Shown: positions 8,247 to 16,460 of the stretch, in pieces
Layout of the letters: each line of letters opens with the position of its first letter
Position numbering within the stretch: position 1 is the stretch's first letter
Source: a virus
Length of the DNA: 23,604 bases
Direction: 5' to 3' (one strand)
IMG/VR virus record: IMGVR_UViG_3300042914_001259
Coordinates: 1 to 23,604 of that record
The notes under the pieces: generated by a model
Database searches by the model: none
Seen by the model: the letters and a program-made list of their open reading frames with translations, nothing else
What the model was told of the DNA's origin: nothing
Program-made: the position numbers and the translations under genes

Positions 8247-8336
8247 CCTCCCCTGCAAACTGCGAGGGAGGGTGGCAAGTTGCCCACCAGTCTCCCCCGC
8301 AAGTTGCTAGGGAGCCTCCCCCGCAAATTGCAGGGG
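8247..8336. repeat. Array of four GCAANTTGC dyads
   Basis: Four inverted repeats sit side by side with cores at 8255-8263 (GCAAACTGC), 8275-8283 (GCAAGTTGC), 8299-8307 (GCAAGTTGC) and 8323-8331 (GCAAATTGC). The centres are 20, 24 and 24 bases apart, about two helical turns. Each core is flanked by complementary C-rich and G-rich arms, for example CCTCCC (8247-8252) with GGGAGG (8266-8271), and CTCCC (8292-8296) with GGGAG (8310-8314). Arms differ in detail while the dyad core is kept, the pattern expected of protein-binding sites. Options are an operator cluster, a replication origin, a packaging site or REP-like palindromes. Confidence 0.7.
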
Positions 8337-8343
8337 TCAATAA

Positions 8344-8376
8344 AGAACCGTCTTAGAACCCTCCTAGAACCGTTTA
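8344..8376. repeat. Three tandem 11-base direct repeats
   Basis: AGAACCGTCTT (8344-8354), AGAACCCTCCT (8355-8365) and AGAACCGTTTA (8366-8376) follow one another with no gap. AGAACC and the T at position 10 of the first and third copies are kept; the first six bases are invariant. An 11-base period places each copy on the same face of the helix. They begin eight bases after the dyad array. Iteron-like or operator-like function is possible. Confidence 0.6.
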
Positions 8377-12748: not shown

Positions 12749-13205
12749 CGTTTCCGAGGTCACTGAAAGGCTTCGAGACTACGGCAGGAGACTGTTTGAT
12801 GACGCTCTAGTCGGCATGGAGAAACGCTTGCAGGAGGTTGTACCAGTCGGTGAGCCGGACCCACTTGGGCGACCGAGGACTGGCGATAGGCTGATCGACA
12901 CTTTCTTTCGGCAGGCCACCTTCCCGTTGTTCGACTCGTTCGCTGCGACCATCGGGTATACCGCTCCGCAGGCCACGTTCTCCAATGACCTGATGCCACC
13001 GCACGTGATTCGGCCACGAGGCAAAGGCTACGCTCTCAGGTTCTGGTGGGAGGACGGACCAAACGGTCCTGGTGAGTATCGCTACATGGAAGTCAATCAC
13101 CCTGGCAACGTGAACAGCCGGTCGCTGGGCTGGTGGGATAAGACAGTCACAAACGAGAACTGGTCCATTGAGGTGGATTTGGCAGTCCGAGGGGTGACGT
13201 ACTGA
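12741..13205 (+). CDS. HK97 gp10-like neck/tail completion protein
   Basis: A 154-residue protein; ATG 12741 follows AGAAGGG (12728-12734) and overlaps the adaptor stop. A first helix (VTERLRDYGRRLFDDALVGMEKRLQEVVPV) is followed by GDRLIDTFFRQATFPLFDSFAATIGY and a beta-rich part ending in YRYMEVNHPGN...SLGWW. An N-terminal helix, a short 'G-L-I-D-T-F' strand and the H-P-G segment late in the protein are the general layout of HK97 gp10-like proteins, which complete the neck between adaptor and tail. A head-closure role is equally compatible. The assignment rests on layout and gene order. Confidence 0.6.
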   Translation: MADVSEVTERLRDYGRRLFDDALVGMEKRLQEVVPVGEPDPLGRPRTGDRLIDTFFRQATFPLFDSFAATIGYTAPQATFSNDLMPPHVIRPRGKGYALRFWWEDGPNGPGEYRYMEVNHPGNVNSRSLGWWDKTVTNENWSIEVDLAVRGVTY

Positions 13206-13654
13206 TGGATCTGTATGATCTTGGCAGCTCGGTGCTAGCCGAGTGCGAAGCGTTACTTGCTCAGCCGGTGACTGGTCGACGCCTGCCGCAACGACGCTAT
13301 GTATCGCACGGGCAACCACCAATCGAGGAGTGTGACGGTGTGCTCGTCGTCTGGTTCTCCCAGGTGGAGGTCAGGCAGATCGGGTTGCGTGACGCTGGAA
13401 TCACGAATCGGGTCGTGGCTGTGAACATTGACGTGTGGCGCTGTTGGCCGACCGGTGATACGCAGCCACCGCAGCCGACTGAGCTGTCTGCCGCCTCGTC
13501 AATCGTCGCTGATGATTGTGATCGTTTGACAGCTGGGCTTTCTGCCTGGCTCGTTGAGCGCTGTGGCCCTGTGGAGTGGCGGCCTGCTGTGCCCCTCGGC
13601 CCACAGGGCGGCCTTGCCGGATGGCGGCTTCAGGTTTCGTTGGCGCTTGATTAG
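13205..13654 (+). CDS. Tail terminator protein
   Basis: A 149-residue protein whose ATG shares one base with the upstream stop (TGATG). The pattern LGSSVLAECEALLAQ, ITNRVVAVNIDVWRCWP, a central helix (SAASSIVADDCDRLTAGLSAWLVERC) and a final GLAGWRLQVSLAL strand is characteristic of actinophage tail terminators, which cap the tube as a hexameric ring and join it to the head. Gene order, directly after the gp10-like gene, supports this. Two small hairpins begin at the last base of its stop codon, after which a new promoter and a group of unrelated small genes begin. Confidence 0.7.
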   Translation: MDLYDLGSSVLAECEALLAQPVTGRRLPQRRYVSHGQPPIEECDGVLVVWFSQVEVRQIGLRDAGITNRVVAVNIDVWRCWPTGDTQPPQPTELSAASSIVADDCDRLTAGLSAWLVERCGPVEWRPAVPLGPQGGLAGWRLQVSLALD

Positions 13655-13687
13655 AGGCGATCGGGCCTCCGAGCAACTTTTCTGCTC
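13654..13687 (+). terminator. Two adjacent small hairpins after the tail terminator gene
   Basis: GAGGC (13654-13658) pairs with GCCTC (13665-13669), loop six bases. Immediately after, GAGCA (13671-13675) pairs with TGCTC (13683-13687), loop seven bases and rich in T. Both stems are perfect but only 5 bp, and there is no T-run after them, so termination would be partial. The position, between a stop codon and a good promoter, supports a transcription boundary. Confidence 0.5.
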
Positions 13688-13693
13688 TAATAG

Positions 13694-13722
13694 TTGACGC
13701 CACGTTTCTCGTGTGTTACGAT
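13694..13722 (+). promoter_or_regulatory. Strong SigA-type promoter for the small-gene cassette
   Basis: TTGACG (13694-13699) and TACGAT (13717-13722) are separated by 17 bases, five of six and four of six consensus matches, the best promoter in the window. Transcription should start near 13729-13730. An ATG at 13730 is in frame with the gene below, so a leaderless start is possible in addition to the GTG with a ribosome-binding site at 13766. Confidence 0.7.
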
Positions 13723-13742
13723 GCTCTGCATGGCACAGGGCC

Positions 13743-13757
13743 ACACGACACAAGGAG
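13743..13757 (+). repeat. 15-base leader repeat, copy 1
   Basis: ACACGACACAAGGAG is identical to the sequence at 14012-14026. Each copy includes the AAGGAG ribosome-binding site of the gene that follows, so the unit is a repeated translation-initiation leader. Confidence 0.75.
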
Positions 13758-13765
13758 AGCAGATC

Positions 13766-13993
13766 GTGAGCAGCACCATCATCCCCAACCGGTTGAGCAA
13801 GATGTTTTGCGAGGGATACGGGTACATCGCCGGACTGGCCAACACCGACTCGGCCTTTGCCGACGATCCGCAGGATTGGATGACCTACTACGCCACCGTT
13901 GCTGAGGACGGCCTGCGTCACGGCGATCAGGATCAGGTCAACTTCAGCGCCGGCCAGATGTTGGCGCTTGAGTGGCTGAGCAGCGAGTCTTGA
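13766..13993 (+). CDS. Small cassette protein 1, unknown
   Basis: A 75-residue acidic protein. GTG 13766 has AAGGAG (13752-13757) eight bases upstream; an in-frame ATG at 13730 would add 12 residues if the transcript is leaderless. The sequence (MSSTIIPNRLSKMFCEGYGY, then DDPQDWMTYYATVAEDGLRHGDQDQVNFSAGQMLALEWL) suggests a small globular helical protein, with no membrane segment, signal peptide or known motif. It uses many AAC, ATC, GAC and GCC codons, a different flavour from the GCT/GTT-rich structural genes around it. First gene of the cassette and unrecognised. Small host-takeover or defence-evasion proteins often occupy such positions, but that is speculation. Confidence 0.7.
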   Translation: MSSTIIPNRLSKMFCEGYGYIAGLANTDSAFADDPQDWMTYYATVAEDGLRHGDQDQVNFSAGQMLALEWLSSES

Positions 13994-14011
13994 GCGCAAC
14001 ACAGACAACCG

Positions 14012-14026
14012 ACACGACACAAGGAG
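14012..14026 (+). repeat. 15-base leader repeat, copy 2
   Basis: Identical to 13743-13757 and again ending in the AAGGAG ribosome-binding site, here nine bases... upstream of the ATG at 14035 by eight bases. The match extends over sequence that is not needed for ribosome binding, implying duplication or selection. Confidence 0.75.
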
Positions 14027-14034
14027 CAGTCAAC

Positions 14035-14433
14035 ATGAACACGACCACCAAGATGACCTACCGACGGGCAGCAGAAGCCATCACCGACCTGATCCTCAAC
14101 AGCCCGATCACCAAGCAGGACGACCTGTGGCCGATTGCCGGACTGATCAGCGACTTGGCTTACTGCGAGAACGAGATCATGGACCACGCTAAATGGGTCG
14201 CAGAACGAGCCACCGCAGCAATCAACCGGATCAACTCCAACGATTCGTGCAACTCGCTTGGAGAGATCCAGTCAGCCGGGTCTCGGCTGGACGTGGCGAT
14301 TAGCCGGCGACAGACCTTGCGTGGAGCCATCCAGATGGTGGCTCCGTCACTCGGAATCGACGCTGCGATCCTGATGACCCCTGACCACATCGACTTGCCT
14401 TACCCTGGCGAGTTAGCCAATCACCAACAGTAG
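14035..14433 (+). CDS. Cassette protein 2, helical, unknown
   Basis: A 132-residue protein; ATG 14035 is chosen because AAGGAG (14021-14026) lies eight bases upstream in the repeated leader, although the frame is open further 5'. It looks all-helical: TYRRAAEAITDLILNSPITKQD, DLAYCENEIMDHAKWVAERATAAINRI, and a long SRLDVAISRRQTLRGAIQMVAPSLG region. There is no recognised domain, membrane segment or signal peptide. The first and third regions could form a small helical bundle. Its codon choice matches the neighbouring cassette genes. I cannot assign a function; its company in a self-contained cassette inside the tail operon suggests an accessory rather than virion role. Confidence 0.7.
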   Translation: MNTTTKMTYRRAAEAITDLILNSPITKQDDLWPIAGLISDLAYCENEIMDHAKWVAERATAAINRINSNDSCNSLGEIQSAGSRLDVAISRRQTLRGAIQMVAPSLGIDAAILMTPDHIDLPYPGELANHQQ

Positions 14434-14447
14434 AAGGAGCAAAGACC

Positions 14448-14681
14448 ATGACATTGACCCAGCAAGACCAATACACGCAGGCCATGAACGATCACGTTGG
14501 CGTTCTGATGGGCGCGACAGTCGTCAAGTGCACAGTCGTTCCTCTAGACGATGAGTGGCCTGATGAGCTCTGGACAGTTCTTCACCTTCGCACTGGTGAT
14601 GGCATGATCCTTGAGGTGGCTGTCAGTCAGGACGAGGAGGGAAATGGCCCAGGGCATCTGTTCATCGAACGCATTCAGTAG
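14448..14681 (+). CDS. Cassette protein 3, unknown
   Basis: A 77-residue acidic protein; ATG 14448 follows AAGGAG (14435-14440) and lies 14 bases after the previous stop. An N-terminal helix (QQDQYTQAMNDHVGVLMG) leads into alternating strands: ATVVKCTVVPLDDEWPDELWTVLHLRTGDGMILEVAVSQDEEGNGPGHLFIERI. The strand part reads like a small beta-barrel or beta-sheet domain of the kind found in short phage proteins of unknown function. It has a single cysteine and no membrane segment. I do not recognise a family. Co-transcribed with its neighbours from the promoter at 13694 by position. Confidence 0.7.
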   Translation: MTLTQQDQYTQAMNDHVGVLMGATVVKCTVVPLDDEWPDELWTVLHLRTGDGMILEVAVSQDEEGNGPGHLFIERIQ

Positions 14682-14711
14682 CAACCAACAACCAAAGAAG
14701 GAGAAAGCACA

Positions 14712-15218
14712 GTGGGCTATCACGTAGATTTGATGTGGGTGAACGCATGTATCCCAGCCGACAAACTCGATGAGGCGTATCAGATCCTGTGCGATCTGAA
14801 CAATCGCAACGACCTGAAGCGTGGAGGTGCCGGAGGTTACGCTTTCGGGGGAACCCCAGCAGGCGAGGAGCCTGTCAACTGGCCGCATCCGAATGTCTGG
14901 TTCTCATGGATGCCGTGGAACTATCCAGAGCTCTACTCCACGGCGCAGAGAATTCTGGAGGAGGTCGGGTTTGAGATGGCAATGGTTGACGGTGACCTGC
15001 ACTTCGTGGGTTACAGCAGCAAAACTGGTTGTGAGGACCGGTTCTTGGAGGCGCTGGCACCTTGCCTGATCGGCGTGGACGAGGTTGACCCATATTTCTG
15101 CTGGCACGGCGAAGATGACTCCATCTGGATGCAGGTTCTCCGTCAGGTCAATGGCGTGGACACTTTGGTCAACGTTGAGGCCAAGATGGTGCCGATGGAC
15201 AGCAAGGAAAGCTCATGA
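14712..15218 (+). CDS. Cassette protein 4, unknown conserved-looking phage protein
   Basis: A 168-residue protein starting at GTG 14712, with AAGAAGGAG (14696-14704) upstream. It begins GYHVDLMWVNACIPADKLDEAYQILCDLN and contains the tryptophan- and proline-rich stretch WPHPNVWFSWMPWNYPE, followed by AQRILEEVGFEMAMVDGDLHFVGY and a C-terminal FCWHGEDDSIWMQVLRQVNG. This arrangement, an alpha/beta protein with a WMPWNYPE motif and a GED-x-x-IW motif, resembles hypothetical proteins I have seen in diverse phages, but no activity is known to me. It has no catalytic signature or membrane segment. Its stop codon runs directly into a twin hairpin that ends the cassette. Confidence 0.7.
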   Translation: MGYHVDLMWVNACIPADKLDEAYQILCDLNNRNDLKRGGAGGYAFGGTPAGEEPVNWPHPNVWFSWMPWNYPELYSTAQRILEEVGFEMAMVDGDLHFVGYSSKTGCEDRFLEALAPCLIGVDEVDPYFCWHGEDDSIWMQVLRQVNGVDTLVNVEAKMVPMDSKESS

Positions 15219-15281
15219 TCTGAGGCTGTATCTGCTCCAGCCTCAGATGGGACCGCCGGTTTGTCGTGGGCCGGCGGTCCC
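15218..15281 (+). terminator. Twin perfect hairpins ending the cassette
   Basis: Two perfect 11-bp stems are placed end to end. The first pairs 15218-15228 with 15238-15248 (loop nine bases, left arm ATCTGAGGCTG). The second, GC-rich, pairs 15249-15259 with 15271-15281 (loop eleven bases, left arm GGGACCGCCGG) and is followed by TTCG rather than a long T-run. The first stem starts at the last base of the stop codon. This is the strongest terminator-like structure in the window; lack of a T-run is usual in actinobacteria. Confidence 0.8.
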
Positions 15282-15317
15282 TTCGCGTCTACCCTCACCA
15301 CTGCTGTCACAAGGCAC

Positions 15318-15326
15318 TGCTATGCT
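15318..15326 (+). promoter_or_regulatory. Extended -10 promoter upstream of the SSB gene
   Basis: TGC followed by TATGCT (15321-15326) is a full extended -10 element (TGN plus hexamer with four of six matches). No -35 is evident at the right distance, which extended -10 promoters tolerate. A start near 15333 would give a leader of about 30 bases containing the strong AAGGAGG at 15352-15358. Confidence 0.5.
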
Positions 15327-15362
15327 GAGCCTGCCGCATCAATGCGAGATCAAGGAGGAACT

Positions 15363-15755
15363 ATGAGTGCTGTAGTAACCATCATTGGTAACGTGACTCG
15401 CGACGCTGAACTGAGGTACACGTCGTCGGGCCTTTCTGTCGGCTCCTTCAGCGTTGCTGTCTCAGAGCGCCAGAGGGGACCAGGTGGAGATTGGCAGGAG
15501 GGTGAGCCGTCCTACTATGACGTCACTTGCTTTCGCTTGTTGGGCGAGTCCGTGGCTGAGACTGTCGCCAAAGGTGACCGAGTCATTGTGACTGGCCGGC
15601 TGAAGCAGTCACGCTGGGAGCAGGACGGCAACAAGCGCAGCAAGGTTGAGGTCATCGCTGATGACGTCGCCAAATCGGTTCTGTGGGCAGCGAAGGGCGA
15701 TAGCCCACGCTCCCCGAGCAATACGCGTAGCATGTCCGAAGAAGATCCGTTCTGA
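15363..15755 (+). CDS. ssb: Single-stranded DNA-binding protein
   Basis: A 130-residue protein; ATG 15363 is set by AAGGAGG (15352-15358). The OB-fold of bacterial-type SSB is clear: VVTIIGNVTRDAELRYTSSGL, then VGSFSVAVSERQR, the YYDVTCFRLLGESVAETVAKGDRVIVTGRL segment and a KVEVIADDVAKSVLWA ending. The linker is only about 20 residues, and the C-terminus is SEEDPF, an acidic tip like the DDIPF of bacterial SSBs that recruits partner proteins. It would coat single-stranded DNA during phage replication or recombination. The gene is out of place between the cassette and the tail chaperones; its own extended -10 promoter and the terminator upstream suggest separate control. The tail chaperone starts ten bases after its stop. 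Confidence 0.9.
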   Translation: MSAVVTIIGNVTRDAELRYTSSGLSVGSFSVAVSERQRGPGGDWQEGEPSYYDVTCFRLLGESVAETVAKGDRVIVTGRLKQSRWEQDGNKRSKVEVIADDVAKSVLWAAKGDSPRSPSNTRSMSEEDPF

Positions 15756-15765
15756 GGGGATGGCG

Positions 15766-16104
15766 ATGAGCAAGAGCAAAGATGGCGTAGAGCTGCTATC
15801 CGATGGCCGAGTCAAACTGGTGATTGACGGAACGTCGAATGTGCTTCGCCGGCCAAAGATCGGTGAGTTGCGGACGTTCGTCGAGGCCATCGAGTCGCTC
15901 GGTAAGAACCCTACAGAGGCCGATCGTTCGTTCATGGCTGGCGCTGAGGACGTCGCAGACTGGTGGCGTAACGTTGTCGCGACCCTTTCCGATGGGACAC
16001 TTTCGCAGGATCTAGACGAGCTGCCTGTCTGGCTCCTTGCCGGCGAACTCCTCGGTACGACCATCAGCCATTGGCGAGAGGTCCCTTACCAGTCTGGCGG
16101 TTGA
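15766..16104 (+). CDS. Tail assembly chaperone, short (gpG-like) form
   Basis: A 112-residue protein. Of two nearby in-frame ATGs (15760, 15766), 15766 is preferred because AGGGG (15755-15759) sits six bases before it. It starts with a beta-rich half (VELLSDGRVKLVIDGTSNVLRRPKIGELRTFVEAIESLG), followed by helices around ADWWRNVVATL and ELPVWLLAGELLGTTISHWREVP. This layout and the position just before the tape measure gene are those of the first of the two tail chaperones that bind the tape measure during tail assembly. The downstream frame overlaps by more than 100 bases in the -1 frame, as in lambda gpG/gpGT. Confidence 0.7.
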   Translation: MSKSKDGVELLSDGRVKLVIDGTSNVLRRPKIGELRTFVEAIESLGKNPTEADRSFMAGAEDVADWWRNVVATLSDGTLSQDLDELPVWLLAGELLGTTISHWREVPYQSGG

Positions 16105-16460
16105 CCGGAGCCGGTCCGTCAGACTCCCAGGCTCCCCCGACAGCATTGGCTGGCTCCTCGCTCGAGTGGTTCGCAGTCCTTTATCGGCGCTGCGCCAACA
16201 CGTTCGGCTGGTCACCAGCTGCTGTGAACGAGATGGAGGCTTGGGAGATCGGCGCTGCCTTAGGTTCAGCGACCGAGGAAACTGAGGCTTGGCTGGCGAT
16301 GAACCGTCCGGCTGACAACCCTGCTGACGTACAATCTAAGAGCCGTGATCTTGTGGCAGAAAGGGTTTTAGCCCATCGTGAGGGCCGCCCACAGCCAGAA
16401 GCATCGGTGATGAGTACCGGTCAGGTCGGCATGTTGCAGGAGCGTTTGCGTGTCAGTTAG
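16083..16460 (+). CDS. Tail assembly chaperone extension (gpT-like), made by -1 frameshift
   Basis: This frame is open from 15972 to the TAG at 16458-16460 and overlaps the short chaperone in the -1 frame. It has no ATG near its beginning, and the only early starts (TTG 16071, 16101) lack a ribosome-binding site. The unique part includes SSLEWFAVLYRRCANTFGWSP, then AAVNEMEAWEIGAALGSA and a RDLVAERVLAHREGRPQPEA tail, like the second domain of long tail chaperones. A -1 shift at CCCTTAC (16083-16089) would give a fusion of about 231 residues. The site re-pairs well for proline but poorly for tyrosine, so the exact slip point is uncertain. The tape measure gene overlaps its end by 11 bases. Confidence 0.6.
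   Translation, partial: PLPVWRLTGAGPSDSQAPPTALAGSSLEWFAVLYRRCANTFGWSPAAVNEMEAWEIGAALGSATEETEAWLAMNRPADNPADVQSKSRDLVAERVLAHREGRPQPEASVMSTGQVGMLQERLRVS

Follow-up and report, generated by a model that had tools for sequence, protein, structure and literature searches.

Morons are independently expressed groups of genes that lie in a virion operon, stand outside morphogenesis and lysis, and are absent in some phages; the 'ant moron' in the late operon of P22-like phages is of this kind (PMC2629481). They often encode features useful for host adaptation, and in the Bacillus phage SPP1 the virion genes are interrupted by a signal-bracketed segment with such genes (ORFs 8-10) and oriR (PMC6316719). 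Phage-specific elements dispersed just upstream of translation starts, SAS and ESAS, have been described in cluster K mycobacteriophages (PMC3203893), and mycobacterial leaderless mRNAs follow a simple rule, an ATG or GTG at the transcription start (PMC4633059).

Here we analyze a cassette of four small genes in a 23.6 kb viral contig record (the window). The cassette is very probably a moron, that is, a complete transcription unit between the tail terminator and single-stranded DNA-binding protein (SSB) genes. Its features are listed in the table below.

The locus and its empty counterpart in relatives

Four near-identical sister contigs of the window were found, the longest of which (G001, 45.3 kb) is 99.2% identical to it over the shared part; the cassette is present in all four, as far as each reaches. 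The capsid and major tail proteins have distant matches only, nearly all of them from phages of actinobacteria, which makes an actinobacterial host likely. The phage is probably siphovirus-like.

Features of the cassette locus (window positions unless stated otherwise)
Feature	Position	Strand	Remark
Tail terminator-like gene, left neighbor	13205..13654	+	phrog_810, 1e-9 (unknown-function family); kept in all relatives
Upstream promoter element AACTTTTCTGCTCTAATAG	13675..13693	+	common to other promoter copies
Promoter, -35 TTGACG, 17-nt conserved spacer, -10 TACGAT	13694..13723	+	one of four genome-wide copies
ATG, predicted leaderless start, in frame with ORF1	13730..13732	+	7 nt after -10 box
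Conserved leader/ribosome-binding site CACGACACAAGGAG before ORF1	13744..13757	+	exact
ORF1, 75 aa, GTG start, orphan	13766..13993	+	no database relatives
Second CACGACACAAGGAG leader, before ORF2	14013..14026	+	exact
ORF2, 132 aa, predicted long helical hairpin, orphan	14035..14433	+	known only from contigs of this species
ORF3, 77 aa, orphan	14448..14681	+	no database relatives
ORF4, 168 aa, GTG start, phrog_38862 family (MGYY...WFSWMPWNY...GED)	14712..15218	+	profile match
Perfect 11-bp hairpin at ORF4 stop codon	15218..15248	+	folding z = -4.1
Second perfect 11-bp hairpin, T-poor tail (TTCGCGTCT), probable terminator	15249..15281	+	folding z = -3.5
GTCACAAGGC, common with the L037 empty site	15306..15315	+	right edge of insertion at or before here
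SSB gene, right neighbor	15363..15755	+	Pfam SSB 7.6e-27
G012 promoter copies	L068 4045-4100 and 9679-9713		

The original prediction had placed the cassette between the tail terminator gene and the tail chaperones. The right neighbor turned out to be the SSB gene, and the chaperone-like gene starts only at 15766.

Relatives were collected via the capsid protein: six contigs of three lineages (L037; L036/L041; L038/L039/L040) encode capsid proteins 69-72% identical to that of the window and have colinear head and tail genes. In all three lineages the gene order is tail terminator, SSB, chaperone-like gene, with the SSB gene at the same place and, in L036-L041, the tail terminator gene directly upstream of it. 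The gap between the first two genes is 48-74 bp, compared with 1.7 kb and four genes here. The nearest relative is L037 (contig G012), with 57% identity in the tail terminator and 58% in the SSB. In its empty site the stop codon is followed by CCG and GTCACAAGGC; as the same sequence stands at 15306 in the window, the insertion fills 13655 to about 15305. A search that found nine other records with ORF4 homologs revealed none anywhere in the six relative contigs. The locus thus shows the clean presence/absence expected of the moron layout. Gain in this lineage would be the simpler reading, because the site is empty in the nearest lineage and also in the more distant ones; loss in the relatives is the alternative, the nearest of them being only 57-80% identical in the neighboring proteins. 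The SSB gene lies outside the insertion and is ancestral to the tail operon of the clade.

Some observations concern the surrounding genes. The SSB gene is a constant component of the tail operon, placed between the tail terminator and chaperone-like genes in all four lineages; this is an odd site for a replication gene. From the tail terminator gene to the gene after the chaperone (13205-16457) the window and G001 have zero codon differences, while 12 and 46 codons differ in the capsid and tape-measure genes, respectively; this may be read as a recent exchange or sweep. The collagen-like fibre gene (1-1539) has 91% DNA identity to G012, most other aligned segments having 65-70%, and may have been exchanged recently. 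Upstream of the major capsid gene (8250-8371), GCGGGGGAGG-type repeats (GCAAGTTGCGGGGGAGG) are followed by GGGGTCAATAAAGAACCGTCCTAGAACC; this region is conserved in L037/G012 and is a possible regulatory or replication site.

Promoter, leaders and terminal hairpins

The sequence TTGACG-N17-TACGAT, singled out originally as the best promoter of the window, is indeed present at 13694-13722, but a generic sigma-70 scan does not lift it above chance level (four matches in the scan against 5.4 expected in shuffles). It stands out through repetition: the whole 30-mer has three further copies in the 45 kb of G001 with 4-5 mismatches each, whereas the next best site has 11 mismatches and the best sites in shuffled genomes have 10-12. 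No copies were found in viral contigs outside this species. The upstream element is similar or near-identical in two further copies, the fourth retaining ATAG only. In the self-comparison of G001 the only dispersed repeats reported were these promoters and one ribosome-binding leader, plus a pair at 45158-45253 within the collagen-like fibre gene.

Each of the four promoter copies in G001 heads a block of small genes. Two head early-region blocks, one behind the lysis genes and the other inside the early region, which holds ERF, C5-methylase, ArdC-type and ParB-like genes; the remaining two head inserted units in the virion operon. The second inserted unit (G001 38556-39661, with the fourth promoter copy at 38556) lies downstream of the large terminase gene, ahead of the late gene that comes next, and ends with a 12-bp perfect hairpin (39627-39661). 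It is absent in the relative G014, where the same two genes are 52 bp apart. G012 has its own promoter family of three copies, TTGTGT-N17-TACGAT in two of them and a weaker box in the third. One of these copies stands at the head of a unit that is flanked by a small zinc-ribbon-like gene and the major capsid gene and ends in a perfect 8-bp hairpin whose tail is rich in T. Unlike G012, the window has no unit before the major capsid gene, so such units occupy different sites of the virion operon in different lineages.

The predicted strong AAGGAG sites were found as well: exact CACGACACAAGGAG precedes not only ORF1 and ORF2 but also two genes of another promoter-headed block, and was not found before virion genes. 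The first gene that follows promoter copy 3 has a leader identical (27/27) to the segment 14012-14038.

In all four G001 promoter copies an ATG is located at the usual place of a transcription start, 6-7 nt beyond the -10 box. It stays in frame with the first gene despite a distance of 33 or 36 nt. In G012 the single promoter copy with such an ATG also has it in frame. This pattern predicts that the first protein is leaderless and N-extended, with a peptide of the type M(A/G)..HTTQG ahead of the start served by the ribosome-binding site; for ORF1, a start at 13730 would add 12 residues (MAQGHTTQGEQI). In terms of the mycobacterial rule, the ATG would coincide with the predicted transcription start in 4/4 copies. 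Of the three G012 copies, those at 29544 and 13125 have a leader hairpin, GTTGAGGA..TCCTCAAC, instead of the ATG.

Two perfect 11-bp hairpins had been proposed to end the unit, and both are there. They are the only perfect stems of at least 9 bp (loop 3-14) in the window, and no perfect stem of 11 bp or more occurred in 20 shuffles. The whole of G001 has three perfect stems of at least 9 bp (loop 3-14), two of which end this cassette while the third ends the second inserted unit. A T-run terminator scan missed the hairpin at 15249-15281; as the latter has no clear T run, termination is inferred, and transcripts would stop at the hairpins.

The paired hairpins proposed upstream of the promoter did not hold up. 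Their stems are 5 bp long and fold at chance level (z = -1.1; 24/200 shuffles fold equally well), and they were rejected as a terminator. The second of them pairs with the sequence upstream of the promoter (AACTTTTCTG..CTAATAG), which is conserved without pairing in another promoter copy; the other promoter copies do not form this hairpin.

The four cassette proteins

The cassette has the four small genes claimed for it, ORF1-ORF4. ORF1 had no match in Pfam, PHROGs, PADLOC or phages. ORF2 had no match in Pfam, PHROGs or phages, and in viral contigs, against which it was the only one of ORF1-ORF3 to be searched on its own, its matches were limited to this species. The single-sequence structure model of ORF2 (pLDDT 75) gave only helical-hairpin matches in PDB, none of them significant. 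ORF3 had no match in Pfam or PHROGs, and the phage search returned a chance-level fragment only. Hence these three are orphans, as originally stated for the whole set, while ORF4 belongs to an uncharacterised phage family, phrog_38862, of Arthrobacter phages (1.4e-27; residues 1-145 against profile positions 1-140 of 155). No paralogy was found between the cassette genes and the genes of the other promoter-headed units.

ORF4 had no match in Pfam, NCBIfam or PDB sequences, and a scan of bacterial genomes with a single short pattern gave no confirmed homolog. Viral contigs from outside the species encode relatives with 32-62% identity to it. In the closest of these relatives (L005) the homolog is followed immediately by a 13-bp perfect hairpin, the sole perfect stem of 9 bp or more in that contig, and then by a promoter-like TTGACA; therefore the gene ends a unit there too. 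In Arthrobacter phages the relatives are encoded immediately behind the primase/helicase gene, at a distance of four genes from the SSB gene. The predicted fold of ORF4 (pLDDT 76) matched nothing in PDB and, among viral models, only uncharacterised phage proteins; a YubB ferredoxin-like fold was considered and dropped, its matches among viral models being at chance level. Of the roles considered we tentatively favor that of an accessory protein that is made early and works near phage DNA replication, although this assignment could well be wrong. ORF1-ORF3 may be small accessory early proteins.

The different codon flavor ascribed to the cassette applies clearly to ORF1 and ORF2, with T at 15% and 11% of third positions compared with 25% in virion genes, and not to ORF3 (26%); ORF4 has 19%. 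The AT skew differs between cassette and virion genes (p = 0.001) and third-position C differs weakly. In third-position composition ORF1 and ORF2 agree with the genes that follow the other promoter copies.

Alternative readings and known systems

The unit would consist of a phage-specific promoter, a leader, four small genes and a double hairpin terminator. We suggest that host RNA polymerase reads the promoter early, alongside the early and replication blocks, that transcripts end at the two hairpins, and that the ATG where transcription is predicted to begin may serve as a leaderless start for the first protein. ORF4 may act near DNA replication, with ORF1-ORF3 as accessory proteins. Early expression is suggested solely by the position of the other promoter copies.

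The least probable alternative, highly improbable in our view, is that the cassette belongs to the tail operon proper and that its proteins take part in virion assembly. This reading is suggested by position and strand only; three lineages whose head and tail genes are colinear lack the cassette, which has its own promoter and hairpins and differs in composition from virion genes. A displaced replication module, in which ORF1-ORF4 and the SSB gene moved together into the tail operon as one island, would explain why relatives of ORF4 adjoin primase/helicase near the SSB gene in Arthrobacter phages and why the SSB gene comes next here. Yet the SSB gene is in place in all three lineages without ORF1-ORF4, and two perfect hairpins separate it from ORF4; therefore the SSB gene and the cassette differ in history, and this scenario is very unlikely. 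We give an equally slim chance to the double hairpin being the functional part and acting on read-through of the late operon. Two strong hairpins in the middle of that operon should affect read-through, but four intact ORFs with conserved leaders would then be superfluous, and relatives manage without the cassette.

A role in host interaction or anti-phage defence, guessed originally, is unlikely, though less so than the preceding readings. It fits the moron architecture, the small orphan proteins, the frequent part of morons in host adaptation (PMC6316719) and the ArdC-type antirestriction protein among the early genes of this phage. The searches gave the guess no support: PADLOC returned nothing below E = 0.03, with no match for ORF1, ORF3 and ORF4 and a chance-level DpdK match (E = 0.03) for ORF2. 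The relatives of ORF4 lie in replication regions, and lysogenic conversion is not indicated, no integrase or repressor having been noticed among the G001 genes examined.

The reading of the cassette as a moron, a known and well-documented kind of element, follows the comparative definition (PMC2629481). The relatives keep the operon without the cassette and no structural family was matched; the genes may stand outside morphogenesis and lysis. The promoter found four times in the genome and the perfect terminal hairpins also back this reading and point to independent expression, as far as it can be read from sequence alone. More speculatively, a standard expression cartridge (fixed-spacer promoter, in-frame ATG at the transcription start, leader and perfect terminal hairpin) could add accessory genes at varied sites of the virion operon, the promoter sequence being lineage-specific and the fixed spacer being bound by a phage-specific regulator of all units; we consider this possible rather than probable.

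In summary, the locus offers a clean sequence-level case of a moron among the genes of a virion operon: relatives have the empty site, another unit of the same genome uses the shared promoter, and the phage group is known here from metagenome contigs alone. The shared promoter raises the question whether the addition of morons proceeds by ready-made units that are controlled jointly; leaderless translation of phage early genes can be tested directly through the in-frame ATG at the predicted start; and the uncharacterised ORF4 family gains a genomic context. In that family, ORF4 aligns with the Arthrobacter phage Tank gp68 family (phrog_38862) over 83-86% of its length with 34-39% identity and the same predicted fold, but the gp68 family gene adjoins primase/helicase in the replication region, whereas ORF4 lies in the tail operon. 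The promoter resembles SAS/ESAS (PMC3203893) in being phage-specific, dispersed and just upstream of translation starts; it differs in having complete -35 and -10 boxes, 17 nt apart, and in lacking the 17-bp inverted repeats of ESAS. The closest described precedent is SPP1 ORFs 8-10 (PMC6316719), where virion genes are likewise interrupted by a signal-bracketed segment with morons; the SPP1 segment has oriR, while no hint of an origin was seen in the cassette, 13600-15400 showing neither iterons nor an AT-rich stretch. Like the 'ant moron' of P22-like phages (PMC2629481), the cassette is a group of genes in a virion operon, probably expressed independently and absent in some phages; the genes are unrelated, and here at least two units in one genome carry the same promoter at different sites.
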